From Candidatus Cloacimonadota bacterium (GTDB lineage Bacteria > Cloacimonadota > Cloacimonadia > Cloacimonadales > Cloacimonadaceae), in NCBI GenBank assembly GCA_012522635.1, contig JAAYKA010000024.1:1-44903 (forward strand): DNA of 44,903 nucleotides. Direction: 5' to 3'. Positions within the stretch are counted from its first letter, which is position 1, and each line of letters opens with the position of its first letter. The translations under genes were made by a program, and so were the position numbers. The notes below the pieces were generated by a model, which did not search any database, was not told the origin of the DNA, and saw only the letters and a program-made list of their open reading frames with translations. Shown here in pieces: positions 5,716-38,369 of this stretch.

Positions 5716-5718
5716 GGT

Positions 5719-8345: not shown

Positions 8346-8349
8346 AGCT

Positions 8350-10217: not shown

Positions 10218-10218
10218 G

Positions 10219-22693: not shown

Positions 22694-23950
22694 TTATGTG
22701 GTTTGACGGATCAGCTCGATGGGGTTGATCCGGTGCAGCCTGCGCAGAGGCAGCAACACGCTGACAAAGGTGATGGCAAAAGAAGCCAACACCACGCTAA
22801 GATAATCCTTCCAACTGAAAACAACAGGCAGGGGCAGGGGTCCACTCTCGCCCATACCCATCGAAAGCAGTCCAAAATGTTTCTGTATGAGCAGCAAAAT
22901 GGTGGAAATAACCAGTCCCAAGATAATACCCAGGCTGGAAAGAATCAAGGCTTGCTGCAAAAAAAGATCACTGAGATCGCCATCCCGATAACCGAAAGCC
23001 TTCAACAGTCCCAGTTCACGTCTTTTCTGGGCAATGGTTTTCAACATCGAACCAGTAAGATTGAAGCTGGCAATCACATACATAAAAAGCATGATGACAA
23101 ACATGAGGTATTTTTCGAAGCGAATGGCGCTGTAGAGACTGGCATCGTAAGCGCCCCAATCATCCACCTGCCAGTCTTTAAAGATATTTTTGATGCGTTT
23201 TGTGTGTGGTTCCGGCGCAGTGGCATCAGGGGTTTTTACTTCAATATAATCGACTTGTTCGTCATAGTTTTTGAAAAAGCTTGCGGTCTCCAGGGATATA
23301 AAACTGAAAGAATAGTCATATTCTGGCATGGCGGTGCTGAAGGTGGCTGCCACATGCATGGTTCGAACCCGGGGCAACAGCCCAAAAGCCGTGGGAACAT
23401 CGAAAACTGGGGATAGAAGCTGAATCTCGTCGCCGAGTTTGACACCCATGCTTGTGGCAAGTGAAGTTCCCAGTGCGATGCCACCTTCCTCGAAAAACGG
23501 GTCCATAATTCCACCGCTCAAAATGCCCAAAACGTTGCCATCCGGGGTGACATTTCTGGGTCCAAGTGCCGCACTAATCTGGGAATGGCGTTCAGGGTCG
23601 ATGCCAAAACATTGGGTGGAAAAAATCTGATCGCCTTTTTTTATCACCAGTTCATTTCGAATCACTGGCGCCGCCTTGTAGCCCAAAACACTCAAACTAT
23701 CCACGAGGCTTTCATATTCGGACACAGCCTCGCCATCCCTGGCTGTGACCCTGATTTCGCTGAGCGTGTTGGTTACCCGGCTGCGAATATCGGCACGCAG
23801 ACCATTCATCACACCGCCAACGCAGATCAAAGCCGTGACACCAAGCGTAATCCCGGCAATGGTGAGCCAGTGAGAACGATGGATTAAACCTCGGCCTTGG
23901 CCCTTCAGATAGCGAAGCGCCAGCCATAGTTTTCCTCTATTTTTTTCCAT
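22694..23950 (-). CDS. LolC/LolE-like ABC transporter permease (FtsX/MacB family)
   Basis: Membrane protein of 418 residues with the FtsX-type layout: one helix near residues 25-48, a large periplasmic domain to about 270, then three helices near 275-300, 325-350 and 385-408. The block LKTIAQKRRELGLLKAFGYRDGDLSDLFLQQALILSSLGIILGLV is the classical LolC/E and MacB motif. LolC/E move lipoproteins from the inner membrane to LolA, which would suit the many lipoproteins in this window. No LolD-type ATPase is adjacent, so the partner must be encoded elsewhere. The ferritin-like gene begins 12 bases after this stop. Confidence 0.87.
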   Translation of the reverse strand: MEKNRGKLWLALRYLKGQGRGLIHRSHWLTIAGITLGVTALICVGGVMNGLRADIRSRVTNTLSEIRVTARDGEAVSEYESLVDSLSVLGYKAAPVIRNELVIKKGDQIFSTQCFGIDPERHSQISAALGPRNVTPDGNVLGILSGGIMDPFFEEGGIALGTSLATSMGVKLGDEIQLLSPVFDVPTAFGLLPRVRTMHVAATFSTAMPEYDYSFSFISLETASFFKNYDEQVDYIEVKTPDATAPEPHTKRIKNIFKDWQVDDWGAYDASLYSAIRFEKYLMFVIMLFMYVIASFNLTGSMLKTIAQKRRELGLLKAFGYRDGDLSDLFLQQALILSSLGIILGLVISTILLLIQKHFGLLSMGMGESGPLPLPVVFSWKDYLSVVLASFAITFVSVLLPLRRLHRINPIELIRQTT

Positions 23951-24018
23951 GATACCACTTCAAGGGGGTGCTTGGTTTGGTCAAGCGGTTTTATCGTTTT
24001 TTACAACTGAGTTGTGGG

Positions 24019-24933
24019 TCAGCTTTCTTCATCCAAAAGCCAGGAATTGGGGGTTATGAGGATATTTTGAATGTTCCCCTGGGATTCCTTCAATTCATAT
24101 CTATTTAATTGTTTAGACCAAACCCAGCGACGAAAATGGTTCAGTTTTTCTTCCGTATCCCAGTTTTTGCCGCTGCTTTTAACAACTATATCATAAAAAT
24201 TCCCGCGTGAGGGCTCAAAAACGATTTCTGAATCAAAATCTTCCGGATCGCCGTGGCCAAAGCTGCGGAAATGCGGAATGCGTAAAAGCACGACAGGGTT
24301 TCCGTCCACAATGCCAAAAACACCATAGCCGACGTCTTTAGATAACACAGCATAGTCGTTTTTTCCAATTTTGATTGGCTTGTCCTGAAGCCTGGTGGTG
24401 CAATACGAGCCAAAACGCCCCAGGTTGAGATTGTATCCCGTGAGCTGCCAAACTCCGGATTTAAGCTTGAAGGCTGCCATGCCAAGGTTGTGGCTCATGA
24501 GGGCTCCGCTTCCACCCCAGGAACTGGAATAAAAATCCCAGGCGCCAGCTTCAAAAACCAGCAACATCTGATTGTTGGGAAAGTGATAAAGCTTCAAAAA
24601 GCGGAAGGGTATCTTATTAATTATCGCTTCAAATTGCGCCTGGTGTCTTGCATCCAAATCATGCCAATCATATAGCAGGTCGCTGATTGCGCCGCCAAAA
24701 GTCCATTGGCGAAGCTCAGGATCGTCGAGTTTGAAAGGATCCAGGGCTGAAACACCTATCAATTCCTGGTAATTGCCAAAAAAGGCTTTCATGAAGTCTT
24801 CACCGCGGGTGGCAGATTTGGGAACCGAACATTCCCTTCCGGTGGGGCTTTTCTCGATTGCATTGCCTTTTTGAGCGTGGCCGCAGGAAGCCAGTAAAAG
24901 CATCAGCAGGGCCAGTGTGAGCAGCTTACGCAT
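24019..24933 (-). CDS. Putative lipoprotein, unknown function, 304 aa
   Basis: I do not recognise this family. The signal peptide MRKLLTLALLMLLLASCG has a canonical lipobox (LLAS-C17), so the protein should be lipid-anchored. The mature part is 287 residues, rich in aromatic residues and Gly, with alternating short strands (for example QMLLVFEAGAWDFYSSSWGGSGALMSHNLGMAAFKLKSGVWQLTGYNL). This suggests a beta-rich soluble domain on the envelope surface. It has four Cys: C17, C35 in GRECSVP, one in SYCTTR and none obvious as a metal site. GAGGAAG precedes the ATG. It ends 68 bases before the LolC/E-like gene on the same strand and may share its transcript. Confidence 0.8.
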   Translation of the reverse strand: MRKLLTLALLMLLLASCGHAQKGNAIEKSPTGRECSVPKSATRGEDFMKAFFGNYQELIGVSALDPFKLDDPELRQWTFGGAISDLLYDWHDLDARHQAQFEAIINKIPFRFLKLYHFPNNQMLLVFEAGAWDFYSSSWGGSGALMSHNLGMAAFKLKSGVWQLTGYNLNLGRFGSYCTTRLQDKPIKIGKNDYAVLSKDVGYGVFGIVDGNPVVLLRIPHFRSFGHGDPEDFDSEIVFEPSRGNFYDIVVKSSGKNWDTEEKLNHFRRWVWSKQLNRYELKESQGNIQNILITPNSWLLDEES

Positions 24934-25016
24934 ATTTAAACTTCCTCTTTTTTGTTTTCACGTTAATATCATCCGATCATCTGTCAAGACCAAATCCAGT
25001 TTTTTGGGTTGAACAT

Positions 25017-25043
25017 GAAAAAAGCCGGTGAAATACCGGCTCT
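25017..25043 (-). terminator. Intrinsic terminator of the NlpC/P60-CapA gene
   Basis: On the minus strand AGCCGGT, loop ATTTC, ACCGGCT is followed by TTTTTT. It begins about 40 bases past the stop of the gene at 25084 and separates it from the lipoprotein gene. Confidence 0.88.
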
Positions 25044-25083
25044 AATTTTGAATGTCAATCTGGTTTTAATCCAGAAACATGGT

Positions 25084-26652
25084 TTAACGTTGGCTGACGG
25101 CGGGTTCATCGCTCTTGCGGGTAACTCTGCCGTCTTGACTGATCACCAGTTCGCTTTCAGGGAAATCCAAATTGGTGAGTTTGATGATTTCTTTCAGCGC
25201 GGAATGTCCATCGTCAAGGATGGGTCCGCCTTTTCCAGGCTGACGGATGGATGTGATTTGCGCGTCCACAAATTCACCAGTACCGGTAACCGTCACTTTG
25301 ATGATGGGCGCGAGACCAAGATTTCCGGAAAGGTTGAAACGTCCATAAGTGCAGAAATTTCCCAAGCTGTAAGCGATGAAACGGCCTTTGTAAATATCGA
25401 TTGCCCGGGTAACGTGGGGGCCATGTCCAAAAACGATGTCCGCACCTGCATCGATGGCTACGCGGGCAAATTCATGCGGATTTCCCCTGTTTTCACCCAG
25501 GAAAAATTCGGTTTTGCCATTCACACGGGTTTTGTCTGAACCTTCGGCGCCACCATGGAAGGACACAATCACGATGTCGCTTTTTTGTTTCAGTTCCTTC
25601 ACGATGCGGGCTACTTCCTTGTAATCGTTGATCTGCATGGTTCCGTTGTTCGGTGCAAAAGCGCAGAATCCATAACGGATATCATCCTTGGTAAACGTGA
25701 CGCTGGGGTATTCTTTCAGCCCGGCAAATTTGATGCCAAGCTCATCCAACATCTTGACAGTGTTGCTTTTACCCGATGCGCCGAAATCCCCGACGTGGTT
25801 GTTTGCCAAACTAACGAGGTCGATTCCCGCGTCGCGCAGGTAGCCACCATAATGGTCGGGGCTTTTAAAAGCAAAACAGGTGGAGGGATTGGAACACTTT
25901 TTTGGCACCCCGGTTCCACTGAGAATCACCCCCTCAAGATTGGCAAAAGTGAGGTCTGCCGAGGAAAGGATGTGTTTCACAGGGTTCAGCAAGTCGCGTC
26001 CATCATTGGGAGGCAAATAGTTTGCAGAGGGATAGTTTGTTCCCAACATGATATCTCCCACTCCGATCACGGTCACGTTTCGCGTGGGGGCCACAAAACT
26101 GGGATATTTTGCCTCCAACTGGGGCATGCGACCGGCATAGAGAAAACGCCTCAGATAGTGGGAACTATTGTAATAATCGTCAATCACAACCCCGCGGGAA
26201 GAGCTGTGAATCATTTTTAGGCCATTGCCATTGTTTTCAACCACCATGGCAACGTGACCAATCTTGTTGGAACTCAGGTTCGTGCCGCGGAAAAACATGA
26301 GATCACCAGGCTGGGCCTCACTGAGGGAAATGCTGCGGCAACTGGCGTATTGGGTGCTGGCAGTGCGGGGAATGCTCACACCATGAAGCGAGTAGATATA
26401 TTGAACAAATCCACTGCAATCCATGATGTTACCCTGAGGATTGCGGAACTTATAGGGCCGTCCCAGATATTGACGGCTGGTTTCAACCATACTTTTGGTG
26501 GCTTCGGCATAGGTTCTGGGGTTGTATGCGGCTTCTGTTTTCCCTGGCCAGGTATCCAAAACAAGGGAAAACAACAGCAGGAACAAGCTCCCAGAAATAA
26601 TTTTTCGCATATAACAGGCGACTTTTCTCGCCCGGGTCATGGTCTTTGTCAT
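25084..26652 (-). CDS. Secreted NlpC/P60-CapA fusion protein
   Basis: Two enzyme domains in one 522-residue exported protein. A long basic N-region and a hydrophobic stretch at about 18-32 form the signal or anchor. Residues about 48-178 are an NlpC/P60 peptidase: catalytic Cys79 in MDCSGFVQYIYS, His133 in IGHVAMVVE and a further His149 in KMIHSSSRGV. Such domains cut peptidoglycan stem peptides. Residues about 190-500 are a CapA/PgsA-type metallophosphatase-fold domain: GVGDIMLGTN, LTFANLEGVI, LANNHVGDFG, VSFHGGAEGS and FGHGPHV. CapA proteins are tied to poly-gamma-glutamate or capsule anchoring, but biochemical roles vary. ATG 26652 has a strong AAGGAG upstream; a start at 26610 is possible but has a weak site. 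It is a single-gene unit with its own promoter and terminator. Confidence 0.9.
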   Translation of the reverse strand: MTKTMTRARKVACYMRKIISGSLFLLLFSLVLDTWPGKTEAAYNPRTYAEATKSMVETSRQYLGRPYKFRNPQGNIMDCSGFVQYIYSLHGVSIPRTASTQYASCRSISLSEAQPGDLMFFRGTNLSSNKIGHVAMVVENNGNGLKMIHSSSRGVVIDDYYNSSHYLRRFLYAGRMPQLEAKYPSFVAPTRNVTVIGVGDIMLGTNYPSANYLPPNDGRDLLNPVKHILSSADLTFANLEGVILSGTGVPKKCSNPSTCFAFKSPDHYGGYLRDAGIDLVSLANNHVGDFGASGKSNTVKMLDELGIKFAGLKEYPSVTFTKDDIRYGFCAFAPNNGTMQINDYKEVARIVKELKQKSDIVIVSFHGGAEGSDKTRVNGKTEFFLGENRGNPHEFARVAIDAGADIVFGHGPHVTRAIDIYKGRFIAYSLGNFCTYGRFNLSGNLGLAPIIKVTVTGTGEFVDAQITSIRQPGKGGPILDDGHSALKEIIKLTNLDFPESELVISQDGRVTRKSDEPAVSQR

Positions 26653-26754
26653 CAGGTCTCCTTGTGTGGTGCCTCTTTGAGAACAGCAATGGAAGAACGT
26701 TCATGAATAGGCACTCAAACACTTTTATAACAGTCAGTTAAAAATTTAGGCACC

Positions 26755-26782
26755 ATGATAAGGGCATGTGGGAGAATGTCAA
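26755..26782 (-). promoter_or_regulatory. Sigma70-type promoter for NlpC/P60-CapA gene
   Basis: On the minus strand TTGACA (26782-26777) and TATCAT (26760-26755) are 16 bases apart. The leader to the ATG at 26652 would be about 95 bases. Confidence 0.5.
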
Positions 26783-26860
26783 GAAAAAAAGACCCTTTTA
26801 TGACATTTTTAGTTGCTATCTAATTGATATTACGCTAGTTGCACGCCTGACTTCAGGGAG

Positions 26861-28873
26861 CTATTTCAGACTGGTTTTCCGTTTCAAAAAAGTGTAAGCT
26901 ATTCCGCCAAAAATTAGAGCCAGGAAAAACAACACAGCGAGATCAACCCCGATATTGTCCAAATTAAACCCTAAAACCCCGTCCGCGGCTTGAGTTCCAT
27001 CCACCAGCAGGATGAGCTCATACGCCCAGCGACTGATTATTGGTGCTGCCAAAATTCGCCCAAAACCTCCCAAGTCCTTGAAATAGACAATCAAACCACC
27101 CAAAACTATCTGTGGAATGAGGATGATGGGGACGATTGCCATGGCAGCTTCTCCGGTTTTTGCCACTGCGGAAACCACCAAACCCATCAGCATCGCCGTG
27201 AAAGAGGTAAGCAACAGAACAAGATAGTGGGGGAAAAACCCAACACCCAGAACTCCGGAATCGTAAAAGGAAAGTTGCGCGAAGGCGGTGATAATCAGAC
27301 ATTGGACAGCACAAAGTATGCCCAAAACCGTCACTTTTGATGCCAGATATGCGCCCAATCCAAGCGCCGCCTTGTTTTCCCGCTGGAAAATGGTCTGTTC
27401 ACAAACAATCTCGCGGGCGGAATTGGAACAACCCAGCCAGATGGCGGCGACGAGTGCCATAAAGTGCATGGCCAGAAGATATTGCTGGGTTTGATTGTTG
27501 GCAAACACCAGCAGTAGAAAGAGCCCGATAATGGGCGCCTGCATCAGCAGAATGAGCGTGCTCATTGAATCCCGCGCCTTGATCAGAAAAGTGCGTTTTA
27601 CCAGGGTAAAAAACTGGCTGAAAGGGCTCACCACGAAGCGGGATTTTTGCATTGCCTTCTCAGATGGGATCTGGTCCATGCCTCTGATAACCATATCTTT
27701 GAATTGTGGGCTGCGCAGATATTCTTTTTGCAATTCGCGGCTGTCGCGTCGTTCCAAAACATCGAAGATTTGCTCCGGCTGCTCAACCTTGAAATATGCC
27801 GCGGCTTCCTGTGCCTTGCCGTAATATGCCAGTTTTCCACCCTCACCCAAAACAATGACATGGCTGAAGATGCCAAAATTTGTGCTGTCAATTTTATGCG
27901 TGGTGAGCACAACAATGTGTCCCTTGTCTGCCAAACCTTTCAGCAGGCTCATCACTTCACGGTCGGTGCGCGGATCCAGGCCACTGGTGGGTTCATCCAA
28001 ATAATAAAGCAGCGGTTCTGTGATGAGTTCCTGAGCCATATTCACACGTTTACGCTGACCTCCACTGATGCCACGGCGTTCAGCGGAACCGATCAGGACA
28101 TTGCGGCTCTGGGAAAGCTCCAAATCCTTGATGATACCATCAATCTGGGTTTTGCGCTCGCTCTCGGAAAGACTGTCGCCCAAACGAAGCTGGCTGGTGT
28201 AAGCAAGCGATTCCTCCACAGTAAGTTCGCGATGGATAATGTCATCTTGGGGAACGTAGCCAATCTGACCTTTAAAGGCCTCAAGATTATGATGGATGGA
28301 AAGGCTGTTCAGCCTCACGATGCCACGACTGGGACGCAAATAACCATTCAACATCAACATGAGCGTGGTTTTACCGCAGCCGGAAGGCCCCACCAAACCG
28401 ATAAATTGCCCAGGCTCGAAGCAGAGGGAAACGTCGTCGATGAGCGTTTTTTCGGGAACACGGTAGCTGAGATTTTGGGCCACCAAACGCAGTTTTTGAG
28501 TCCAAAGATGTTGCGGAGGCGCCTTGAGCACATCTTCCAAACTGAGCGGAATGCCCGCAATCACAATGGTATCTGTCGGGCTGACCGTTTTGGAGCTAAT
28601 TTTTTTACCGTTTACAAAAGTTCCATTTTGGCTGCCCAGATCCTGCAGAACCCAATTTCCCCCTTCCAAAAACAGCTTGGCATGGTTTCTGGACACCCTG
28701 ATGTTGTCCAGAATAATATCGCAGCCGGGAGCACGACCGATTACATAGGAATCTCTGGTTTGAACAGGTGTGTCCGCTGGTTTTTTACCGCAAAATGGAC
28801 AGAAAACAGAGTCAGAATCAATTTGTCTTCGGCAATTCGGACACAGCATTTTCTGCTTTTTCTCTCGCTTCAT
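26861..28873 (-). CDS. Zinc-ribbon/FHA-headed ABCG-like transporter
   Basis: A 670-residue full half-transporter with a signalling head. Residues 11-29 are a zinc ribbon (CPNC and CPFC). Residues about 43-110 are an FHA domain with GRAPGCD, SRNHAKL and the SQNGTFVNG loop, which binds phosphothreonine. Residues about 128-350 are an ABC ATPase: Walker A GPSGCGKTT at 162-170, signature ISGGQRKRV, Walker B and D-loop LDEPTSGLDP. From about residue 425 come six helices of an ABC2/ABCG membrane domain. The reverse order (ATPase before membrane) is ABCG-like. FHA control suggests transport switched by phosphorylation. ATG 28873 has GAGG 7 bases upstream; ATG 28849 is an alternative. It overlaps the previous gene by 56 bases. 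The cargo is unknown. Confidence 0.93.
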   Translation of the reverse strand: MKREKKQKMLCPNCRRQIDSDSVFCPFCGKKPADTPVQTRDSYVIGRAPGCDIILDNIRVSRNHAKLFLEGGNWVLQDLGSQNGTFVNGKKISSKTVSPTDTIVIAGIPLSLEDVLKAPPQHLWTQKLRLVAQNLSYRVPEKTLIDDVSLCFEPGQFIGLVGPSGCGKTTLMLMLNGYLRPSRGIVRLNSLSIHHNLEAFKGQIGYVPQDDIIHRELTVEESLAYTSQLRLGDSLSESERKTQIDGIIKDLELSQSRNVLIGSAERRGISGGQRKRVNMAQELITEPLLYYLDEPTSGLDPRTDREVMSLLKGLADKGHIVVLTTHKIDSTNFGIFSHVIVLGEGGKLAYYGKAQEAAAYFKVEQPEQIFDVLERRDSRELQKEYLRSPQFKDMVIRGMDQIPSEKAMQKSRFVVSPFSQFFTLVKRTFLIKARDSMSTLILLMQAPIIGLFLLLVFANNQTQQYLLAMHFMALVAAIWLGCSNSAREIVCEQTIFQRENKAALGLGAYLASKVTVLGILCAVQCLIITAFAQLSFYDSGVLGVGFFPHYLVLLLTSFTAMLMGLVVSAVAKTGEAAMAIVPIILIPQIVLGGLIVYFKDLGGFGRILAAPIISRWAYELILLVDGTQAADGVLGFNLDNIGVDLAVLFFLALIFGGIAYTFLKRKTSLK

Positions 28874-29354
28874 TTAACTGCCTCAATCCAGAGGGCAGCG
28901 GCAGTTCCTTTGTATACTTCACTGTTTTACTAAAACCCCACTTGCGTGCAGTAACCTGCGTTTCAACTCTCAGCTTATTCAACGACAGCCCCAAAAGGTT
29001 CCGAAAACTGCCAAGCTCGAGCGTCAACGGAATTTCCTGATTTTCAGAACGGGCTTCAACGTAATATCCCTGCTGGCAATTGAATTTCAACAAGGTTGCT
29101 TCACCACCGATGAGAGAAACCTCGAAAGGTTCAAGCTGATATCCAATCCGAGCCTTGTTCGTGATTTTCAAAGAAAATGCGAGAACATTCGCAGGATCCG
29201 TCAGAAATTTTTCTGGATTCACCGTGAGAGAGGGTTCCACCTCCGGTTCAAAATCCCAGGTGCTGGCCCAAAGCAGAAAACCAAAGGCTAAAATCAATAG
29301 AATCAGGAGGCTGTGCCACCAGTAGAATTGAAAATAGAAACGTTTCTCGTTCAT
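28818..29354 (-). CDS. Single-pass membrane protein, unknown, 178 aa
   Basis: One N-terminal helix at about residues 14-31 (SLLILLILAFGFLLWAS) anchors an extracytoplasmic beta-rich domain. That domain has the look of a LEA14/NDR1-like (WHy-type) fold: a run of strands such as NVLAFSLKITNKARIGYQLEPFEVSLIGG and IPLTLELGSFRNLLGLSLNKLRVETQV. I cannot confirm that assignment by eye. It has no enzyme motifs. It lies between an M48 protease and the FHA-ABC transporter, and its end overlaps the transporter start by 56 bases, an unusually long overlap. It may be an accessory part of the transporter or a target of the protease. Confidence 0.72.
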   Translation of the reverse strand: MNEKRFYFQFYWWHSLLILLILAFGFLLWASTWDFEPEVEPSLTVNPEKFLTDPANVLAFSLKITNKARIGYQLEPFEVSLIGGEATLLKFNCQQGYYVEARSENQEIPLTLELGSFRNLLGLSLNKLRVETQVTARKWGFSKTVKYTKELPLPSGLRQLNEAREKAENAVSELPKTN

Positions 29355-29374
29355 AAAACTAATCCCAAAAAGGA

Positions 29375-30430
29375 CTACATCTTCTCGATGCGTTCGATTC
29401 GTTTTTGCGCGGTGGGATGGGTGGAAATGAAATCGTTGATGGCCTGGATATTTGGATTTTCCTCAGTGGGTTCATATTTTTGGAGCTTGCGGAAAAAGGA
29501 AATGGCACCCTGTTTGGAATATCCCGCAGCGGTCATCAATTCCACTCCCCGCTTGTCCGCGGCGTATTCAATTTCTTGGGAATAAGGGTGTTTATAGATA
29601 TTGTAGGCAATTCCGACCACCTCCCCAAACAACGGATTAATCTTCCCAGCCCGCACGGAGTGTTGTATTTTTTCCACGCAGTGCTTCAGGTCGTTATGCG
29701 CGATTTCGTGGGCAATCACAAAAGCGAGCTCGTCTTCACGGTCCAAAGCATTCAACATCCCCATATTGATAAAGGTTTTTCCGCCTGCCACGGCAAAAGC
29801 GTTAAAATCACGATCCGCTGTCACGTCGCACTGCCAAGCCAAGTCCCGGCGGGATGATTTGGCTCTAATCTTGCGGAAGACGCCCTGCACATCGAATTTT
29901 GAGGTTCCACCTTTGCCAACTTCCCGGAGGATTTTTTGCCGGAGCTCGGCACCAATCTCATTTTCTTCTTCGATGCTGAGCGCCGTCATATCCAGCAATC
30001 GTTTATCCAATTCGCTGGACAAGCCGGCCAATCCTTCGATTAGACCCATAAGATCGCTCTCCTGGCTTGTCTCTCCCACTTGAGGAAGCTTCAAAAGTTC
30101 GATCAGGTCAATCTCATTTGCCACACATTGCCATTGGCGGTTTCTCTTTTCGAAGGTCAAATGCCCCGGCAGAATTTGCGGTCCAAAACCCAGGGCTGGT
30201 TTGTTCAGCCGGGCCTGATAGTCCATTTCATACCTGCGTTTGCCATTGCTGTAGCCTTCGTTTTGAATGAAAAACTCCTCAATAGAATAATCCTGCCCCA
30301 GATGCTCCTGGATTTGAAGTTCCAGTTTGTCTCGCTCCAGACGAGCCAGCTTGTTGATCTCGTTTTTGTCGCATCCACCCAACAATATTAAGGCTGCCAG
30401 CAAGGCAAGTATGCTGATGTATTTTCTCAT
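29375..30430 (-). CDS. M48-family metalloprotease lipoprotein
   Basis: A zinc protease of 351 residues on the envelope side. The signal peptide ends in LLGGC, so Cys20 is lipidated. A charged N-terminal region of about 150 residues is not recognised. The peptidase domain has the HExxH site as FVIAHEIAHNDLKH at about residues 232-245 and the third ligand Glu in SQEIEYAADKRGVELM, with NMGMLNAL as the upstream strand. Domain order resembles BepA/LoiP-type periplasmic M48 enzymes that act in envelope quality control. The ATG overlaps the phosphatase stop as ATGA, so it belongs to the FHA/PP2C operon. Confidence 0.92.
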   Translation of the reverse strand: MRKYISILALLAALILLGGCDKNEINKLARLERDKLELQIQEHLGQDYSIEEFFIQNEGYSNGKRRYEMDYQARLNKPALGFGPQILPGHLTFEKRNRQWQCVANEIDLIELLKLPQVGETSQESDLMGLIEGLAGLSSELDKRLLDMTALSIEEENEIGAELRQKILREVGKGGTSKFDVQGVFRKIRAKSSRRDLAWQCDVTADRDFNAFAVAGGKTFINMGMLNALDREDELAFVIAHEIAHNDLKHCVEKIQHSVRAGKINPLFGEVVGIAYNIYKHPYSQEIEYAADKRGVELMTAAGYSKQGAISFFRKLQKYEPTEENPNIQAINDFISTHPTAQKRIERIEKM

Positions 30431-31491
30431 CTTTTTGGGTTTCCTCGAAGGTCTTTTTTATCCCCGGAGTTATCTTTATTGTTTGGTTCGGGTTTTAGCG
30501 CGTTTTGCTCTTCCTTTTTGTCCTCTTTCACTTCTGGAACCCTCAGAGTATCAGCGAGAAGCGAATCCGGCTCCGGCGTAACAATCTTCTCACTTTGCGA
30601 TGCCACGTACTGTTTTCCCTTGAAAACTCCGATGTGGAAAGTGTTCATTAAGCTCAGCGTAGCCGCCAAACCCAGAAATACCGTTAAAAACACCAAAATC
30701 AGGGTAAGGAGATTATATGACCCCCTGGGTGTTTCGGACTTGTAAACCTTTCCGCTATTGACTTTTAGAATCTGCACGGTAATGTTGTCTTTGCCTCCAC
30801 GATGGTTGGCTTCGTCAACCAGGTCGCGGCATGCCTGCTGTGGTTCCAATACAAGATAACCATCCAGTTCACGCGGAGTTAGATAATCTGTGAGCCCATC
30901 CGAACAAAGCAGAAATACGTCGTCCCGATAAAGCGGGAATGGACCCTTCACGTCAGCCGGATGCGGTTTTGCGCTCAAGGAACGGGTGATGATGTTTTTG
31001 CGGGGATGGTTGTGGGCGTCCACTTCCGAGATAATCCCGTGATCCACCATCTCCTGCACCCAGGAGTGGTCTCGCGTGATCAGTTTTATTTGACCACCGC
31101 GCCGGAGATAGATGCGGCTATCTCCAATCCAGGCAATCCAATAGCGTTCTCCGCGGATGAGCAAAATAACCGCCGTGGTACCCATTTCAGACATGTCGGG
31201 GTTTTGCTGCGCGTGGGCGGCGATATTTTGTTGAGCCAGGTTCAGAGCTTGATGAAGTTCGTCGTTTTCTTGAAAATCCGTGCCCAATTTCTGAAAGTGG
31301 GACGCGATGGTCTCCACCGCCACCTGGGAAGCAATCTCGCCACCGCTGTAGCCGCCCATACCGTCGCAAACAACAAGCAATTCTCCAAAATCGCCGCTGA
31401 ATTTTCCGTAATAGTCCTGGTTGCTTTCACGCTTCATACCCACATCGGTGAGGTTGCTGATCGTGAATCTGTTTACCGCGTTCGGCTTCAT
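30427..31491 (-). CDS. PP2C-type Ser/Thr protein phosphatase with membrane anchor
   Basis: Metal-dependent phosphatase that should remove phosphate from Ser/Thr. Residues about 8-245 are the PP2C domain: SNQDYYG, VCDGMGGYSGGEIAS (metal-binding Asp-Gly), WIGDSRIYL, ITRDHSWVQ, LLCSDGLTDYL and GGKDNITVQIL are all intact. A membrane helix follows at about 257-282 (LLTLILVFLTVFLGLAATLSL). A highly charged tail of some 70 residues would then lie outside the cytoplasm. Total length is 354 residues. It is in an operon with three FHA proteins but no kinase, so it should oppose a kinase encoded elsewhere. The gene starts 8 bases past the stop of the vWA-FHA gene. Confidence 0.95.
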   Translation of the reverse strand: MKPNAVNRFTISNLTDVGMKRESNQDYYGKFSGDFGELLVVCDGMGGYSGGEIASQVAVETIASHFQKLGTDFQENDELHQALNLAQQNIAAHAQQNPDMSEMGTTAVILLIRGERYWIAWIGDSRIYLRRGGQIKLITRDHSWVQEMVDHGIISEVDAHNHPRKNIITRSLSAKPHPADVKGPFPLYRDDVFLLCSDGLTDYLTPRELDGYLVLEPQQACRDLVDEANHRGGKDNITVQILKVNSGKVYKSETPRGSYNLLTLILVFLTVFLGLAATLSLMNTFHIGVFKGKQYVASQSEKIVTPEPDSLLADTLRVPEVKEDKKEEQNALKPEPNNKDNSGDKKDLRGNPKR

Positions 31492-31499
31492 AAAAAACC

Positions 31500-33053
31500 T
31501 CAGACCAAATAAAAACGGCCTTCGTTCGAGCCCAGCTTGAATGTTGCTTCCGGATCAATACGGCAGATGCTGACCTTCTGACCGCTCACATGCGTCCCAT
31601 TCATCGAGCCCAGGTCTTCAATGAAGAATTGTCCGTCGGCCCAGTAAATGCGCGCGTGTTGGGAAGACACGGTTGAGTCGTTCATCACGATTGTGTTTCC
31701 GGGTGAGCGGCCAATGCTGGCTCCCTCTTTTCCAATTCTAAAACTGCGACCCTGCTCTGTGCCATAAACCACTTTCAAAACCAGTTCGGAAAAACCACCC
31801 ACCGGAGCGCCGCCGGGGTCCAGAATCACGGTGCGTTCCCGATCCATTGGCTCCGGAGGCTTAATCCTGCGGGTTTCTTCTTCGCGGCGGGTTTGCTCCT
31901 GCCTGATACGATCTTCCTCAAGCCGATGTTCTCTCTCCACACGCTCCTGGTTTTCACGGCGCTGTCGTTCCGCTTCCTCAAGCCGACGTCTTTCCTCGGT
32001 CTGGCGAATTTTCTTCTGCCTGTTTAAAAGGAATATCAAAAGCCCGACGACAATCAGCAAGAAAGCTGCCGCGCCCAAAATCCATCCCAGTGGAAAGCCT
32101 TTTTTGCCATCGGAATCCAAGTCTTCCGGTTGGATTGCCTCCTCCACAGGGACCAATACCTGAGCAGGTTCATGCAGGCTGGCACTGTTTTCGCCCACCT
32201 GCAGAGTGATATTCAAATCTTTAAGCTTGCCATCGCCAGCCAGATTGAAAACAGGATAGTTGAGAATCCAGGAACCCAATATCTGGCGCTGAACCTTGGA
32301 AAAGTGTTTGTTCAAACTCTCGGGACTGGGCGCGTGGTAATAGCTGCCGCCGGTTTCGTCGGCAATTCTTTCCATATATTGCAAAAACTGTTTTTCCACC
32401 TTGGTGTAGCCCACGGTAAAAATGGGCAAATGCTTTGCCCTGGATGTTTTTAAGGCTTCTTCCAAGGTGTAGGCTTCGGCTGGATTTTCTTCTTTTCCGT
32501 CCGAAAACAGAATCATGTAGCGCCCATCGTGTTTCGGTTTTTTTGAGCCCAGATGGTCCAAACCTTTGTGGATGGCGTAATACAGCGATGTGTCTCCGCT
32601 TCTGACCTTCAGATCATTAATGCTCTTACGCAAGAGCTCTGTATCCGTGGTAAAATCGCAAACCACCTCCGCTTTTTCGCTGAAAGCCATGATGCAGATC
32701 TCGTCTTGAGGCCGTTTTTCATCAATAAAAGTAAGCAGACCGCTTTTCACGCTGTTCAAGGGTTTTCCACCCATCGAACCGGAAACGTCCACGTTTATCA
32801 AAACGGAAAGCCCCTGCCCGGAAGATTCAAAGGTGCTCACACTATAAATGCTGTCCACCTCGATGCCGCCAAAATTGATTTTGAAGTTTTTCGGGTTTAG
32901 TTTTTGCAGGGGTTCGTCGTCCGCGTCCAGCGTCAAAACAGTGCTTTGCACGGCTTTGGGAAAACCATCCGCGTTTGTTCGCAGGTGATGAATGCTGATA
33001 TTTTGCGCCCAAAGCGGCGCGAACAGCAGAAGCAGGGTCAGCAGTTTACGCAT
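31500..33053 (-). CDS. vWA-transmembrane-FHA protein
   Basis: A two-sided sensor-like protein of 517 residues from ATG 33053, chosen over TTG 33065 because GAGGTG lies just upstream and the signal peptide MRKLLTLLLLFAPLWA begins there. The extracytoplasmic part has a vWA domain (about residues 80-260) with a complete metal site: DVSGSMGG, a Thr in TSLY and FSDGKEE. A helix at about 324-343 crosses the membrane. A highly charged segment of Arg/Glu repeats follows (about 350-400). Then come the motif ERTVILDP near residue 408 and a C-terminal FHA domain (about 430-515) with GRSPGNTIV, SSQHARI and SMNGTHVSG. It could relay ligand binding outside to phospho-dependent contacts inside. Confidence 0.93.
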   Translation of the reverse strand: MRKLLTLLLLFAPLWAQNISIHHLRTNADGFPKAVQSTVLTLDADDEPLQKLNPKNFKINFGGIEVDSIYSVSTFESSGQGLSVLINVDVSGSMGGKPLNSVKSGLLTFIDEKRPQDEICIMAFSEKAEVVCDFTTDTELLRKSINDLKVRSGDTSLYYAIHKGLDHLGSKKPKHDGRYMILFSDGKEENPAEAYTLEEALKTSRAKHLPIFTVGYTKVEKQFLQYMERIADETGGSYYHAPSPESLNKHFSKVQRQILGSWILNYPVFNLAGDGKLKDLNITLQVGENSASLHEPAQVLVPVEEAIQPEDLDSDGKKGFPLGWILGAAAFLLIVVGLLIFLLNRQKKIRQTEERRRLEEAERQRRENQERVEREHRLEEDRIRQEQTRREEETRRIKPPEPMDRERTVILDPGGAPVGGFSELVLKVVYGTEQGRSFRIGKEGASIGRSPGNTIVMNDSTVSSQHARIYWADGQFFIEDLGSMNGTHVSGQKVSICRIDPEATFKLGSNEGRFYLV

Positions 33054-33061
33054 GATGCACC

Positions 33062-33715
33062 TCAAACCGTTTTAAGCTTCAAATCCACCGTGGCGATGCG
33101 GATAATATCGTTTTCATTCAGATAAACCTTGTCCTCAATCATCTCGCCATTCACGAAAGTACCGTTTGAGGAAAGGTTGTCTTCGATGATATATTTGCCG
33201 TTACGACAGAGCAGAACAGCATGTTCGGCAGAAACACCGGGTATGGACAGCCGAATGTCGCAGTTTTGCGCGCTACCGATGATGTGGCGTCCCTGGTAGA
33301 GCTTGTAATCCCGTCCCATGGGATCGATGTCGAAGGTCACCAGCCAACCCGTGAGCATCCGATTTGCCTGGGGACGAGGTTTGGCTTCAGAGCCTGATTC
33401 AGCTTCAGGCTCGCTGGGTTCTGCTCCCAGAATCACAGTTTTGTCGTCCGCTGGGGCAGAAGGAGCGGCGTGTCCTGGCTGGAGGCGTGCTTTGGAGGTA
33501 TCCAACCGGGTTTTATCCACGTCATCACCCATTCTGGCGGTGGGCTGCAAACCCAGGTTATCACGAGCCGGCGGGCAATGTGGACAGGCAGGCAAGCTGG
33601 CATCGTAGTCGTGGCCATTCGGACAGGTGCGCAAGTTCGAGCGCAGCGCTTTTCCGCATGATTTGCAAAAAATGGCGTGGTCTGGATTGATGGCATTGCA
33701 AGCGGGGCATTTCAT
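33062..33715 (-). CDS. Double zinc-ribbon FHA protein
   Basis: Cytoplasmic protein of 217 residues. A zinc ribbon at 3-21 (CPAC and CKSC) is followed by a second Cys/His cluster at 31-47 (CPNGH and CPHC). A flexible Ala/Pro/Glu-rich linker (about 50-120) carries VDKTRLD at Thr69 and DDKTVILG at Thr93. Residues about 144-215 are the FHA domain with IIGSAQNCD, SAEHAVL and SSNGTFVNG. The Thr motifs match FHA ligands, which favour I/L/D at the third place after phospho-Thr, so self or partner binding after phosphorylation is plausible. GGAG precedes the ATG. It is the first annotated gene of the signalling operon after a tiny leader frame. Confidence 0.9.
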   Translation of the reverse strand: MKCPACNAINPDHAIFCKSCGKALRSNLRTCPNGHDYDASLPACPHCPPARDNLGLQPTARMGDDVDKTRLDTSKARLQPGHAAPSAPADDKTVILGAEPSEPEAESGSEAKPRPQANRMLTGWLVTFDIDPMGRDYKLYQGRHIIGSAQNCDIRLSIPGVSAEHAVLLCRNGKYIIEDNLSSNGTFVNGEMIEDKVYLNENDIIRIATVDLKLKTV

Positions 33716-33739
33716 TTTGGTCTCCTAATCTATGTTTAT

Positions 33740-33856
33740 CTATTTATTTAACCGGGATTTAAAAGTGTTGAAGTCCGACCCTTTCAGGCACAGAAAACTT
33801 GGGGAAATGGTTCCCAAAACAAAGAAATCAAAACAAGCCTTCAGGCAAGTAGTCAT
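33740..33856 (-). CDS. Possible 38-aa small protein or leader peptide
   Basis: A short frame that runs from ATG 33856 to TAG 33742-33740. A good AAGGAG (33867-33862) lies 5 bases upstream of its ATG. It stops 24 bases before the FHA gene start. The peptide begins MTTCLKACFDFF and has three Cys and a mildly hydrophobic front half, with no known motif. It could be a leader peptide, a small membrane-associated protein or chance. The strong ribosome binding site and its place at the head of the operon are the only support. Confidence 0.35.
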   Translation of the reverse strand: MTTCLKACFDFFVLGTISPSFLCLKGSDFNTFKSRLNK

Positions 33857-34034
33857 ATCGTCTCCTTGGCTCTCAAATGAACGCTAAATTATGGCTCCGA
33901 CGCATCCGAAGCCAAAATTAACTCAAGCCCCAAGTGCTTTTTTCTGTCAAGAAAAATCTCCCCAACTGATTTTTGGTATTCATTATATAGGCACCCCCTT
34001 GGCTGTGAGTTTTTCCTCTCCGGGCAGTTTTTGG

Positions 34035-34062
34035 TTGACAAATAAAGCAAGCCTTCTAAACT
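34035..34062 (+). promoter_or_regulatory. Sigma70-type promoter for the DUF6150-like gene
   Basis: TTGACA at 34035-34040 and TAAACT at 34057-34062 are 16 bases apart. The ATG at 34091 would have a leader of about 20 bases including AGGAGG. Confidence 0.45.
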
Positions 34063-34090
34063 TAGAAAACCAAATCAGGAGGTGATGAAA

Positions 34091-34423
34091 ATGAAAAAAC
34101 TGCTGTTCCTTTTGCTTGCCTTGTTCGCCGTAAGCGCCTTTGCCGGTTCTGTTTACGTGATGGACACCGGCAAGGCCGATCTCAATATCTGGGTTTGCCA
34201 ATATAAAAGCGAAGCCGACATCTGCGTGTATGTGGATGAATACCGCTCCGCCGCCAAAAACAAGGACTGCATCTGGTTTTTCGAGCGCTATAAAAGCAGT
34301 GCCGACTTCACGGTGAAATTCGTTAAATATAAATCCCAGGCAGATTTGAAGGTGTATTACGTGAAATATAAATCTCAGGCTGAGTGGCGAAAATCACACG
34401 CTTGGACGGGTAGGCTGCAATAA
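34091..34423 (+). CDS. Secreted DUF6150-like repeat protein
   Basis: A small exported protein of 110 residues. ATG 34091 is chosen because AGGAGG (34077-34082) lies 8 bases before it; GTG 34082 and ATG 34085 are too close. The signal peptide is MKKLLFLLLALFAVSAFAGS. The mature part is built of short strand repeats of about 11-12 residues carrying Y-K-S-x-A-D: QYKSEADICVYV, EYRSAAKNKDCIWF, RYKSSADFTVKF, KYKSQADLKVYY and KYKSQAEW. This fits what I recall of DUF6150 proteins of Bacteroidetes and relatives, which have no known function. It is probably a small all-beta fold. The two Cys in the early repeats could pair. Confidence 0.8.
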   Translation: MKKLLFLLLALFAVSAFAGSVYVMDTGKADLNIWVCQYKSEADICVYVDEYRSAAKNKDCIWFFERYKSSADFTVKFVKYKSQADLKVYYVKYKSQAEWRKSHAWTGRLQ

Positions 34424-34955
34424 TGTCACAAAGCTCCGTCTTTTAAAGCTTTGAGCTGCCATCGCGCTTTCCTCCTTGAGCCTGGCTCATTCATGCCTCA
34501 AGAGCTTCTCATTATCATCCCAAGCCCTATATGGGAACTTCGTTGGAAGCTATTTGGTTACACAAGAGCCACAACACGGTGGGAATATCGGAAAGACCAA
34601 ATCATTCGACTGCTTCCATAAATATAAGAACGAGTCTGTTGTAAAACACCCCGCAAGTGCTTAAACCTATATGTCGCATATGGTTATCCTTTGAAACATA
34701 AGGGAGACATAAGGAGGCAAGCAAGAGCGACCCCAAAAATCCGTTCCCAATGCCAGACTGAGACCATCCTGATGCTTAATCCAGATAAAAAATAAATTGT
34801 TCCTGATTTCGTGTTGTTGATAACTCATCCCGACATGTTTATTTAACTTGATTCGTCACAGTGTTTTCACAGCTCTCAAACAGCAAGAAAAAACAGCCCA
34901 CCAGAAAAACTGATTGACAAAAATCGGCAGCTTTTTGGGATGGTTTTCCCAATGC
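34424..34955. other. Intergenic region before tRNA pair
   Basis: These 532 bases hold repeat copy C (34613-34737) and a TTGACA at 34914-34919 that may be the -35 box of the tRNA transcript; its -10 box is not obvious. A 62-codon open frame at 34476-34664 has no ribosome binding site and no recognisable features. Nothing else is seen. Confidence 0.6.
34613..34737 (+). repeat. Dispersed intergenic repeat, copy C
   Basis: Runs CCATAAATATAAGAACGAGT, then CTGTTG, a variable middle, TGTCGCATATGGTTA, TTTGAAACATAAGGGAGAC, ATAAGGAGGCAAGCA and an ACCCCAAAA block. It is closest to copy B, with which it shares the right end. It is between the DUF6150-like gene and the tRNA genes. Confidence 0.8.
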
Positions 34956-35033
<78 letters not shown>

Positions 35034-35045
35034 CCCTTTCTTTTG

Positions 35046-35122
35046 GGGTGATTAGCTCAGCTGGTTAGAGCGCTACGTTCACATCGTAGAGGTCACTGGT
35101 TCGAATCCAGTATCACCCACCA
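35046..35122 (+). tRNA. tRNA-Val (anticodon CAC)
   Basis: A complete cloverleaf 12 bases after the first tRNA. It is identical to the first except for the wobble base (loop TTCACAT, anticodon CAC) and the D-loop, where C replaces TT. CCA is encoded at 35120-35122. It reads GUG. Confidence 0.96.
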
Positions 35123-35158: not shown

Positions 35159-35375
35159 TTTCCGGATAAAAACATCTGGAGGGGACAAAATCCTTTTTCC
35201 AATCGGTCAAAATATCTCTCTTGCGATGGCGATTTTTGTCAAAAAGATGAAAATATATCTGTATAAATCAAGTCAAATCCGCCTTAGACAAAAAAAGCAT
35301 TTGACAATTATGGCGTTTTATAGGTGATGCAATGTAAACTGAAAATAATGTTTAAAATGGTATAGGAGTTTGCGT

Positions 35376-38369
35376 ATGAAGTTGCACATACGTGCTTTAG
35401 CTTTGATCGTGCTGCTCGGACTGCTGGCCTTTGGCTGTAGCGGACCCTCTGGTGCGGATCAGAAAAAGCTTGGCAAACAGACCGTTAGCAACCTCAAGGT
35501 TGAAGATATTCGCGGTGACGGCGGCGACGGCCTGATGCTGAGTTGGAAACCACTACCCAAGGAAAGCAGAGTTCAGGAATACCGCGTCTATCGTGGAGTC
35601 CATCCAGACACATTGTTTTTCCTCGCCGCGGTGCAGGTGAACGTCAAAACCGGCGTTGGCACGGATGAAATGTTCTATTCTGACAGCGGCTACAATCCAT
35701 TGGTGAGCCTGGATTCACCCCGCAAGCTGAAAAACGAGCGCGGAGCAAAGGGCAGTGTTTTGTATCAGGGCGTCCCACGGGATGCCGAAATCATGGCCCG
35801 CCTCAGCGAATGTTACAATCTTTTCACGCAGATGGATGCCAAAGATTATTATTACAAAACCAAGAAAACAAGATCGGCAAATCCGGAGGATGAAAGCATT
35901 TATGCCGGGGTTCAATTCAACCAGCAGACCATTCTGGCTTCCTTAAAAAGCCGGAGTGAAAGCCCTGAACCGATCAAATACTATTACACGGTTGTCCCTG
36001 TGAACGAGCGTGGACAGTATCTTGGCATATCCAAACCCGTGTTCGGAACCCCGGATGATGATCCGCCAGAAGCCTCTCCCGGCCTCTACTGCGCTGCCAT
36101 CGAAGACCTGCAGGAACTCCGCTTTGAATGGGAATATCCCATCAGCCACGACGATATCCAAGTATATGAAATCCTGATGCTTGGTAATTTGGAAACCCCC
36201 AACCGGGAAAACACCATCTCCGTGGCGAGAGGCCCCGTGGGCGGTGGAGCTTTGAAAAACAACTGTGTCCTGCCGTTTGCCCAATTTGAAGCCATGGGCA
36301 TCGCTCGCAGTTGGGAAGGTTTGAAAGATTCCCATTTTGTGATTCAGTTTACCGATGGTGGCAGAAATCAATCAGGATTCAGTGAACCCTCACAGCCTGT
36401 TTTGGCTCACAGCCGCGACCTGCCCCAAACCCCGGTTTTCCGTGTGGAAGACAAACCGATGGATAAAGGTGACCGCATTTCCGTCATTTGGCAGGAGCCT
36501 GTGGTATCCATCACAAAAACTTCCGCCGTAAATGGCAAGGGCACCAAACTGAAGATAAACTATGAGATTAACAAAACCGACAGCCAAAAGCTGAAAAACA
36601 TCTATTTTGACTTCTATGAACCCGGAAAAGACAAACCATTTGCAACCATAAACGAATTTCATCAGGACAACATCATCCACCTGAATATCCCCGAAAAGTA
36701 TTCTCTCAAGGGACAAAAATTTCCCCAGGACAGTCTGAAGGTGCGCATCACCATTGCCAGCCAGCCCTATAAGATTAACCCCAAAAACGGGCGCATCGTA
36801 TATGAAAAGACACGCCTGGTGGAAAATTATGAACTGGTGCAATATCTGAAGCCAGATCCGGTGATGGTGGCCTACATGCCCACGCGTCAGCTTTTCCTGA
36901 ACGGTCAGGATGTTTCCACCATGCAAAACGTGGTGTATCGCAAAGGCTACCGTGGCAGTTCCTTCACTCAGGTGAAGACCAACACTTCCTACGAAAACAA
37001 CCTGGACGTGGCGGTGAATTACATCGCAAAAGTTGGTCAGCCAGTGCTGGGCTTCAACTTCGTGAAAGACAATACACTTTTCACATATATGAACGGCCAG
37101 CGTTTTTCCCGCAAACTCGCGTCAGGCGAAAAGGCCCAAGACCTTGCCCTGCTGCCTTCGCAGATAGATTTCACCCTGGATAATGACAGCCAAAGCCTGC
37201 TGTACTCCAGCATCTATCTGGATGAAGCCAAAAACACCGTTTCAAACCTGAAAAAAGATCTGCAGGATAAGAAAAAAGAACTGGCTGAGGACCAAAAAGC
37301 CCTCGCCATGCCCAACCCGGAAGGCGCGTTGACACTGGCGGCAAAGATTGAAGCTGGCGAAAAACAGATTGAGGCTCTCCAGGCAAAAATCGAAGCCTAC
37401 GAAAAGAATCCGCTGTTCGCGCAAGCATTGAAAGCCAAAAGCAGCCGCGCGCTGATGAGGCTTGTGTCTTCAGTGCGCGAACCGGAACAGCGCAAACATA
37501 ACTACACGATGTTCCGCACCAATGGCAAGGGACTTTTCACGGAAGCGGCTCCAGACACCTTGAATGAAGATTATGTCTATTACGCGCCCATTTCCAACTG
37601 GTTCGACTGGAACAAATTAATCTCACTTTTCGCCGTGATTATCTTCGGTGCCATGGTGGTCATTTTTGTGAACCTCGCCAAAAAAGGCAAGGATCTCTAC
37701 ATGCGTCCCATTGCGGGATTGGAGGAAATCGACAACGCCATCGGCCGTGCCACAGAAATGGGACGTCCAATGCTGTATTGCATGGGCAATGGCAGCCTTT
37801 CCGACGTCGCCACTCTGGCCTCCATGGGCATCCTCAGCCTCGTCGCCAAAAAAGCGGCGGAATATGATACCAAACTGATTGTTCCCTGCTACGACTACAT
37901 TGTGATGCCCATCGCCCAGGAAATCGTGCGCGATGCCCACTACGCGGTGGGTCGCCCGGACAGCTATGAGAAGGACAACGTTTTCTATCTCACGTCCGTG
38001 CAGTTTGCCTATGTGGCAGGCGTGAACGGAATCATGATCCGCGAACGTATGGCCACAAACTTTTTCATGGGCTACTTTGCCGCCGAAGCTCTGTTGATGA
38101 CGGAAACCGGAAACGCGGTTGGCGCCGTGCAGATTGCCGGCTCAGACGCCATCACCCAGATTCCCTTTTTCATCACCACCTGCGACTACACTCTCATCGG
38201 CGAAGAGCTTTATGCCGCTTCGGCATACCTGAACCGCGAGCCCATGCTTTTGGGCACTCTGAAAGCTCAGGACTATTTCAAGTTCCTGATCCTTGTTTTC
38301 ATTATTGCCGGTGCCGTTCTGGCCAGCTTCCAGATGACCGGATTGATGCAATTTTTCCCTTTAAAATAA
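35376..38369 (+). CDS. Giant lipoprotein with DUF6754-like membrane domain, paralogue 1
   Basis: A 997-residue envelope protein from ATG 35376 (AGGAG 8 bases upstream; TTG 35370 adds only two residues). The signal peptide ends LAFGC, so it is a lipoprotein. An Fn3-like domain follows at about 35-125 (VSNLKVEDIRGDGGDGLMLSWKPLP, YRVYRGVHPDTLFFL), then further beta-rich modules to about 610 and a coiled coil at about 615-680. A first helix lies at about 747-767, with a conserved domain at about 775-965 starting RPIAGLEEIDNAIGRATEMGRP, and a last helix at about 970-990. With a lipidated N-terminus outside, the conserved domain should be cytoplasmic. I recall this C-terminal domain as DUF6754, of no known function. 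It is the first gene of a five-gene cassette and has a paralogue at its end. Confidence 0.85.
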   Translation: MKLHIRALALIVLLGLLAFGCSGPSGADQKKLGKQTVSNLKVEDIRGDGGDGLMLSWKPLPKESRVQEYRVYRGVHPDTLFFLAAVQVNVKTGVGTDEMFYSDSGYNPLVSLDSPRKLKNERGAKGSVLYQGVPRDAEIMARLSECYNLFTQMDAKDYYYKTKKTRSANPEDESIYAGVQFNQQTILASLKSRSESPEPIKYYYTVVPVNERGQYLGISKPVFGTPDDDPPEASPGLYCAAIEDLQELRFEWEYPISHDDIQVYEILMLGNLETPNRENTISVARGPVGGGALKNNCVLPFAQFEAMGIARSWEGLKDSHFVIQFTDGGRNQSGFSEPSQPVLAHSRDLPQTPVFRVEDKPMDKGDRISVIWQEPVVSITKTSAVNGKGTKLKINYEINKTDSQKLKNIYFDFYEPGKDKPFATINEFHQDNIIHLNIPEKYSLKGQKFPQDSLKVRITIASQPYKINPKNGRIVYEKTRLVENYELVQYLKPDPVMVAYMPTRQLFLNGQDVSTMQNVVYRKGYRGSSFTQVKTNTSYENNLDVAVNYIAKVGQPVLGFNFVKDNTLFTYMNGQRFSRKLASGEKAQDLALLPSQIDFTLDNDSQSLLYSSIYLDEAKNTVSNLKKDLQDKKKELAEDQKALAMPNPEGALTLAAKIEAGEKQIEALQAKIEAYEKNPLFAQALKAKSSRALMRLVSSVREPEQRKHNYTMFRTNGKGLFTEAAPDTLNEDYVYYAPISNWFDWNKLISLFAVIIFGAMVVIFVNLAKKGKDLYMRPIAGLEEIDNAIGRATEMGRPMLYCMGNGSLSDVATLASMGILSLVAKKAAEYDTKLIVPCYDYIVMPIAQEIVRDAHYAVGRPDSYEKDNVFYLTSVQFAYVAGVNGIMIRERMATNFFMGYFAAEALLMTETGNAVGAVQIAGSDAITQIPFFITTCDYTLIGEELYAASAYLNREPMLLGTLKAQDYFKFLILVFIIAGAVLASFQMTGLMQFFPLK

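Follow-up and report, generated by a model that had tools for sequence, protein, structure and literature searches.

The contig JAAYKA010000024.1 of a Candidatus Cloacimonadota bacterium, analysed over its whole length of 44,903 nucleotides (the window), carries a compact run of six intact minus-strand open reading frames (ORFs), found by ORF calling, at positions 26861–33715. This island probably encodes a phosphothreonine switch acting on an ABCG-type exporter, comparable to the PknB and Rv1747 systems of mycobacteria, with most likely K129, encoded on another contig, as its kinase and with a pair of proteins resembling ArnA and ArnB as sensor and scaffold. The parts of such a switch are known; their combination, its recurrence in metagenome-assembled genomes (MAGs) of three named phyla and the displacement of the kinase appear to be new, in that they were not met in the open-access literature searched, where no description of the operon was recognised from title or abstract.

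The six genes (Table 1) succeed one another, in transcription order, with an overlap of 4 bases, a gap of 8, an overlap of 4, a gap of 20 and an overlap of 56. The last of these would shrink to 32 if the transporter starts at residue 9, which is likely because the proteins of relatives begin there; the true start of the vWA-transmembrane-FHA protein (vWA-FHA) is probably the ATG at residue 5. The original prediction, made from the sequence of the window, had recognised the minus-strand run but carried it up to 33856. The frame from 33062 to 33856 contains two stops, and the start codon of the first gene is at 33715, preceded by AGGAG. Its count of three FHA proteins is correct as a total in which the transporter is included (Pfam FHA E-values of 9.6e-18, 3.7e-16 and 3.6e-20). 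Further Pfam matches identify vWA (1.2e-16), PP2C_2 (4.9e-19), M48 (3e-25), ABC_tran (9.2e-30) and ABC2_membrane (1.9e-18) domains, and no Pfam family matched the small protein. Hydropathy analysis gives a single transmembrane (TM) segment each in vWA-FHA (329–347), the PP2C (261–279) and the small protein (15–33). FHA, vWA and PP2C genes thus occur together in one operon, as in FHA-vWA-PP2C-kinase signalling sets, and FHA, ABC_tran and ABC2_membrane domains share a single chain, as in exporters of the Rv1747 type. The same gene order is seen again in relatives, so the run is not a product of chance.

It had been noted that the window lacks a Ser/Thr kinase and inferred that one encoded elsewhere serves the island. 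The first point is borne out, and the second supported, by a search with PF00069 of the genome (G000, a 1.84 Mb MAG, 96% complete), which gave six Pkinase matches, none of them on the contig of the window (C24). Only K143 and K129 have a complete kinase domain of canonical type, in which the HRD, DFG and VAIK motifs are all present. The kinase-fold genes on C60 and C113 lack the catalytic HRD, as read from their sequences; the match on C38, at a contig end, is fragmentary, and that on C16 is part of a large protein (about 1,800 residues) whose type is spread across the order. K129 (contig 129, L031, 3050–4195) is a PknB-like kinase fused to a CD225/dispanin (IFITM-type) tail (PF04505, 2.7e-20), and its gene is followed by a DUF2752 gene. 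K143 is encoded on contig 143 (L030) in an operon PP2C–Zn-ribbon-FHA–kinase with a Sel1-repeat gene next to it. Upstream of the latter operon lie two tandem genes that are serpin-like by reading of the sequence; the region as a whole spans 1616–10240.

A kinase gene is found beside the island in relatives. In a sister genus (G035), the genes follow one another as DUF2752-type gene, kinase, Zn-FHA, vWA-FHA, PP2C, M48 N-terminal domain, small protein, FHA-FHA-ABC transporter and a second kinase; the first kinase lies 53 bp upstream of the Zn-FHA gene and the second 62 bp after the ABC gene. A kinase gene, cut by the contig end, begins 2 bp past the ABC gene in G020; the gene at that place in G019 has the kinase fold but no catalytic HRD, and it is fused to an FGE-sulfatase domain. 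Linkage extends to a Bacteroidota MAG (L137; Zn-FHA, vWA-FHA, PP2C, M48, kinase) and an Ignavibacteriaceae MAG (L140; Zn-FHA, vWA-FHA, PP2C, kinase), the phylum names being those of the MAG records. The clustering with a kinase in relatives that the original prediction proposed to look for is therefore present. No kinase was found in the flanks examined in G025, and in G013 and G031 contig ends interrupt the locus. None of the five loci of the window's genus has a linked kinase within the stretches examined; on the island contig of G001 there are three kinases, at least 30 kb away. Since relatives have a linked kinase and the genus has none at its five loci, the absence of a kinase beside the operon looks like a genus-level rearrangement, which comparison with relatives brings to light. 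A tblastn search for related loci confirmed 276 relatives, of which the best 80 were covered and the gene tables of 12 were read, most others of the 80 matching vWA alone; L136, L138, L139 and L142 agree in length and matches with L036, L042, L043 and L040, are apparently the same contigs, and for that reason were not counted twice. Among the named records in these best 80 of 276, the nearest match of vWA-FHA is the Candidatus Cloacimonadota MAG L136 (73% identity).

The phylogeny of the kinases connects K129 with the linked kinase. In a tree of 30 kinases, K129, its counterparts in G001, G003 and G013, and the upstream kinase of G035 form one clade (96/90); an earlier version of 36 rows, with pseudokinases and fragments, was distorted by long branches, and six rows were dropped. 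All five members of the clade align over the CD225-like tail, and all five have a DUF2752-type gene beside them, identified by Pfam in G000 and in the remaining members by a sequence match or by reading. As to other kinases in these genomes, kinase-fold domains without HRD occur in L033, L035 and L042, with an FGE-sulfatase fusion seen by Pfam in L042 and by reading in L033 and L035; paired tandem Hanks kinases are present in G001:C7 (L124) and G003:C6 (L120), and G003, a genome of 2.8 Mb, has 12 Pkinase matches.

Kinases and the island also tend to occur in the same genomes. In family f1 (36 genomes), Pkinase matches that reach 180 bits are present in 9 of 11 island carriers and in 0 of 25 others (Fisher 5.8e-7); the statistic ignores kinship, and the threshold was set after the data were seen. 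Genomes with vWA-FHA matches number 14; three of these (G030, G039 and G053) were set aside, since their alignments covered no more than the vWA part. Within the window's genus the figures are 4/5 and 0/8, and the same within-genus contrast is found in genera g1, g4 and g8, but not in g3. K129 itself occurs in all three genus members with the transporter (G000, G001 and G003) and in neither of the two without it (G002 and G010), a contrast drawn from five genomes, of which G010 is 80% complete. In G002, the M48 and ABC genes have shrunk to short scars; in G010, both are missing. The island-less G005 (L216) has lolCE, then about 0.67 kb, then a tRNA-Val pair and a DUF6754 gene, whereas in the window (compared over 23950–35122) about 11.0 kb separates lolCE from the tRNA-Val pair and holds the island and two further genes. 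On sequence grounds this comparison would fit gain and loss of the island equally.

A genome devoid of Ser/Thr kinases would have told against the original prediction, but kinases are present; degenerate binding residues in the FHA domains would have done so too. Two of the three domains are intact by alignment, with R47, S61, H64 and N83 in the transporter and R453, S467, H470 and N489 in vWA-FHA; that of the transporter keeps the canonical phosphothreonine-binding set Gly, Arg, Ser, His and Asn, as in Rv1747. The residues of the transporter and vWA-FHA domains, with the Gly preceding the Arg, correspond to the positions named in PMC5549992 for FHA I of Rv1747, whose ligand is given there as pTRVV. 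The third domain, in the Zn-ribbon-FHA protein (znFHA), retains Ser162, His165 and Asn184 and has Ser148 where the phosphate-binding Arg is expected; in alignments, this position is Arg in FhaA and EmbR. The residue is Ser or Ala in all five genus members and Arg in 8/8 of the remaining proteins compared; the Arg is likewise missing from a Chloroflexi znFHA protein of loose assignment.

The linkers preceding two of these domains hold striking threonines, Thr69 (DKTRL) and Thr93 (DKTVIL) in znFHA and Thr412 (RERTVIL) in vWA-FHA. The pattern [DENRKHQS][KREDH]T[VMI]I, which was written after the alignment had been viewed, is found 14 times in 13 znFHA linkers, where shuffles lead one to expect 0.05, and 9 times in 12 vWA-FHA linkers, where the expectation is 0.07; each set held 14 proteins, of which one znFHA and two vWA-FHA rows were not scorable. 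Among the scored rows, the motif is absent from the Chloroflexi znFHA and from the vWA-FHA proteins of G035 (which has REQTMIL), G031 and L140. Thr412 falls within the lowest-confidence stretch of the vWA-FHA structure model (390–423), in keeping with a flexible acceptor site. We regard Thr69, Thr93 and Thr412 as candidate phosphoacceptors.

The PP2C belongs to the Stp1/IreP type at the curated NCBIfam cut-off (NF033484, 230.6 against 230 bits), and its DGMGG, SDGL and DN motifs are intact, so that the metal-binding Asp motifs of Stp1/PstP-type phosphatases are kept. The vWA domain of vWA-FHA has the MIDAS residues D93, S95, T159 and D189; a signal peptide, read from the sequence, precedes it and the TM segment comes after it, which places the vWA in the periplasm. 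The structure model of the protein consists of the vWA with a β-sandwich, a TM helix extended into a long helix (a stalk to residue 394), a disordered linker and the FHA domain. Foldseek ranks the ArnAB complex 8S05 first for this model (1.2e-13), but the scores of many other vWA proteins are nearly as good, and this likeness is no more than suggestive. In sequence searches, znFHA matches ArnA at 9e-5 to 1.2e-4 and the vWA matches the longer chain of 8S05 at 1.6e-7. The small protein is modelled as a TM segment and a β-sandwich (pLDDT 75) and weakly resembles TMEM106B (1e-4) and LEA14 (1xo8, 6e-3); LEA2 domains handle lipids. The lipoprotein domain and the peptidase that are united in the M48 protein have separate genes in G020; G035 keeps the N-terminal lipoprotein domain only, and G019 and L137 the peptidase only.

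Comparison with characterised systems points to Rv1747 and PknF of Mycobacterium tuberculosis as one of the closest parallels. In both, an ABC half-exporter carries an FHA head with canonical residues and Thr-hydrophobic motifs are present; a Ser/Thr kinase gene adjoins the transporter in G035 and G020, and the transporters of G035, G020 and G013, like Rv1747, bear two FHA domains. The island differs in that a Zn-ribbon precedes the FHA, in the addition of Zn-FHA, vWA-FHA, PP2C, M48 and LEA2-like partners, and in the unlinked kinase of the window's genus. With ArnA and ArnB of Sulfolobus acidocaldarius (PDB 5A8I and 8S05), it shares the pairing of a Zn-finger-FHA protein with a vWA and β-sandwich protein; here, in contrast to a cytoplasmic vWA protein devoid of FHA, a signal peptide and a TM segment put the vWA in the periplasm, and its chain carries an FHA as well. 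PMC6509490 places the phosphosites of ArnB in its C-terminus. The mycobacterial set PknB–PstP–FhaA/FhaB supplies the closest solved relative of K129 (PknB; 1mru and others, about 1e-57); among solved proteins, PstP is also one of those closest to the PP2C, and FhaA (TB39.8) is the closest to znFHA. The mycobacterial PknB operon holds cell-division and wall genes; no such genes are present here, and vWA-FHA, ABC and M48 genes stand in their stead. Triads of vWA, PP2C and kinase constitute the TerY-P type. In GAP1-N2 neighbourhoods, as described in PMC7159879, such triads have a stand-alone vWA and a kinase that bears a zinc ribbon; they share the three neighbouring genes with the present set, to which FHA proteins and the exporter are added.

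Taken together, these findings suggest a mechanism in which a membrane-bound PknB-like kinase, most likely K129, would phosphorylate Thr69 and Thr93 in the znFHA linker and Thr412 in that of vWA-FHA. Recognition of these phosphothreonines by the FHA domains of the transporter and of vWA-FHA would bring the vWA sensor, the scaffold and the exporter together at the inner membrane, and the PP2C would reverse the phosphorylation. The periplasmic vWA may sense an envelope ligand, and the M48 lipoprotein and LEA2-like protein could form the periplasmic output side, perhaps handling lipid or glycolipid. Much as originally proposed, a kinase would thereby drive transport and proteolysis at the envelope. 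In the window's genus, znFHA is probably a phospho-target and Zn scaffold more than a phospho-reader, because the kinase gene no longer adjoins the operon and the FHA domain of znFHA lacks the Arg. The computed findings are the gene content, the linkage of kinases in relatives, the grouping of K129, the co-occurrence and the conservation of motifs; for phosphorylation, binding partners, sensing and substrate we infer the roles given here. Such a switch would offer a compact, genome-backed model of a Hanks kinase and PP2C apparently dedicated to one exporter, outside the Actinomycetota and in a largely uncultured phylum, and would link the Rv1747 and ArnAB paradigms. As kinase, acceptor threonines and reader domains are all named as candidates, its operation is open to direct test.

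Several observations weigh against this mechanism. No K129-clade kinase was found in G019 or G020, in which the transporter is present; K143 is an equally canonical candidate; and the loss of the Arg weakens phospho-reading by the znFHA domain. G031 (99% complete) and G010 (80% complete) carry the island but no Pkinase match that reaches 180 bits, and 3/24 order-level genomes (G039, G042 and G057) have such a match without the island, so these kinases do not need it. To these may be added the post hoc threshold, the neglect of kinship and the small number of genomes in the K129–transporter contrast, noted above. The most serious competitor is K143, which would serve the island in place of K129 if the contig 143 operon shared its kinase. 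Orthologues of K143, which itself adjoins FHA and PP2C genes, occur in G000, G001, G002 and G003, which all carry the island, including G002, where K129 was not found; but the island-linked kinase of G035 groups with K129 and not with K143, K143 already has an FHA and a PP2C of its own, and K129 is missing exactly where genus members lost the transporter. We consider the sharing of K143 unlikely, though well worth keeping in mind. It is improbable that the island in this genus is a relic turning phospho-independent, whose FHA domains act as plain scaffold since the kinase link was lost. Loss of the Arg throughout the genus and in 0/8 outside it (the Chloroflexi protein apart), the scars of G002, the gaps of G010 and the existence of island-less genomes such as G005, with lolCE next to the tRNA-Val pair, would all be in keeping with such decay; however, all six genes are intact in the window, and within the genus neither the remaining two FHA domains nor the PP2C and Thr motifs have been lost.

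A role in anti-phage defence, with K129 as a signalling kinase, seems very improbable. PADLOC matches K129 to PD-T4-6 kinase models (1e-89) and the PP2C to PDC-M21C (1.9e-12), and the island is patchy in its distribution, with an empty site, but the PD-T4-6 models represent Hanks kinases in general, the PP2C is matched weakly, and no PADLOC model matched Zn-FHA, vWA-FHA, M48 or the small protein. The parallel with the threonine-phosphorylation set of type VI secretion (PpkA/PppA/Fha), drawn in the original prediction from the joint presence of FHA and PP2C, has to be given up as practically untenable: TssC/VipB (PF05943) has 0 matches in the genome, an Escherichia coli control genome being positive, and scores of 35 and 31 bits for the TagH model stay below its cut-off of 120, so neither a TagH-type FHA nor a sheath gene was found in this genome. 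A bolder extension of the favoured phosphothreonine switch is, in our view, doubtful as a whole. According to this, the island is a bacterial counterpart of ArnA/ArnB rebuilt as a transmembrane sensor, in which a periplasmic vWA would signal through TM segment and stalk to a cytoplasmic FHA and, with the Zn-FHA scaffold, gate an FHA-headed ABCG lipid exporter; a periplasmic lipid handler of LEA2 type (TMEM106B-like) and an M48 quality-control protease would accompany it, and the kinase would have left the operon in one genus while the phospho-reader of the scaffold decayed.

Table 1. Genes of the island in transcription order, with positions in the window
Gene product	Position	Strand	Length	Features
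Zn-ribbon-FHA protein (znFHA)	33062..33715	-	217 aa	First gene in transcription order
vWA-TM-FHA protein (vWA-FHA)	31500..33065	-	521 aa	Signal peptide, vWA, TM, helical stalk, disordered linker, FHA
PP2C phosphatase, Stp1/IreP type	30427..31491	-	354 aa	One TM segment
M48 metalloprotease lipoprotein	29375..30430	-	351 aa	Lipobox LGGC, HEIAH active site
Small TM-anchored protein	28818..29354	-	178 aa	Predicted β-sandwich, LEA2/TMEM106B type
Zn-ribbon-FHA-ABC_tran-ABC2_membrane half-transporter, ABCG type	26861..28873	-	670 aa	

Promoter-like sites (12 against 8.4 expected) were not informative, and terminator-like sites (23 against 10.6 expected), lying mostly within genes, were not used. Adjoining the island in five genus loci is a gene, at 25084–26652 in the window, for an NlpC/P60 hydrolase fused to a PGA_cap (capsule synthesis-type) domain. 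Two DUF6754 proteins are encoded at 35370–38369 and 42635–43750, the first with a long N-terminal region that lies outside the coverage of its matches in order-level relatives.

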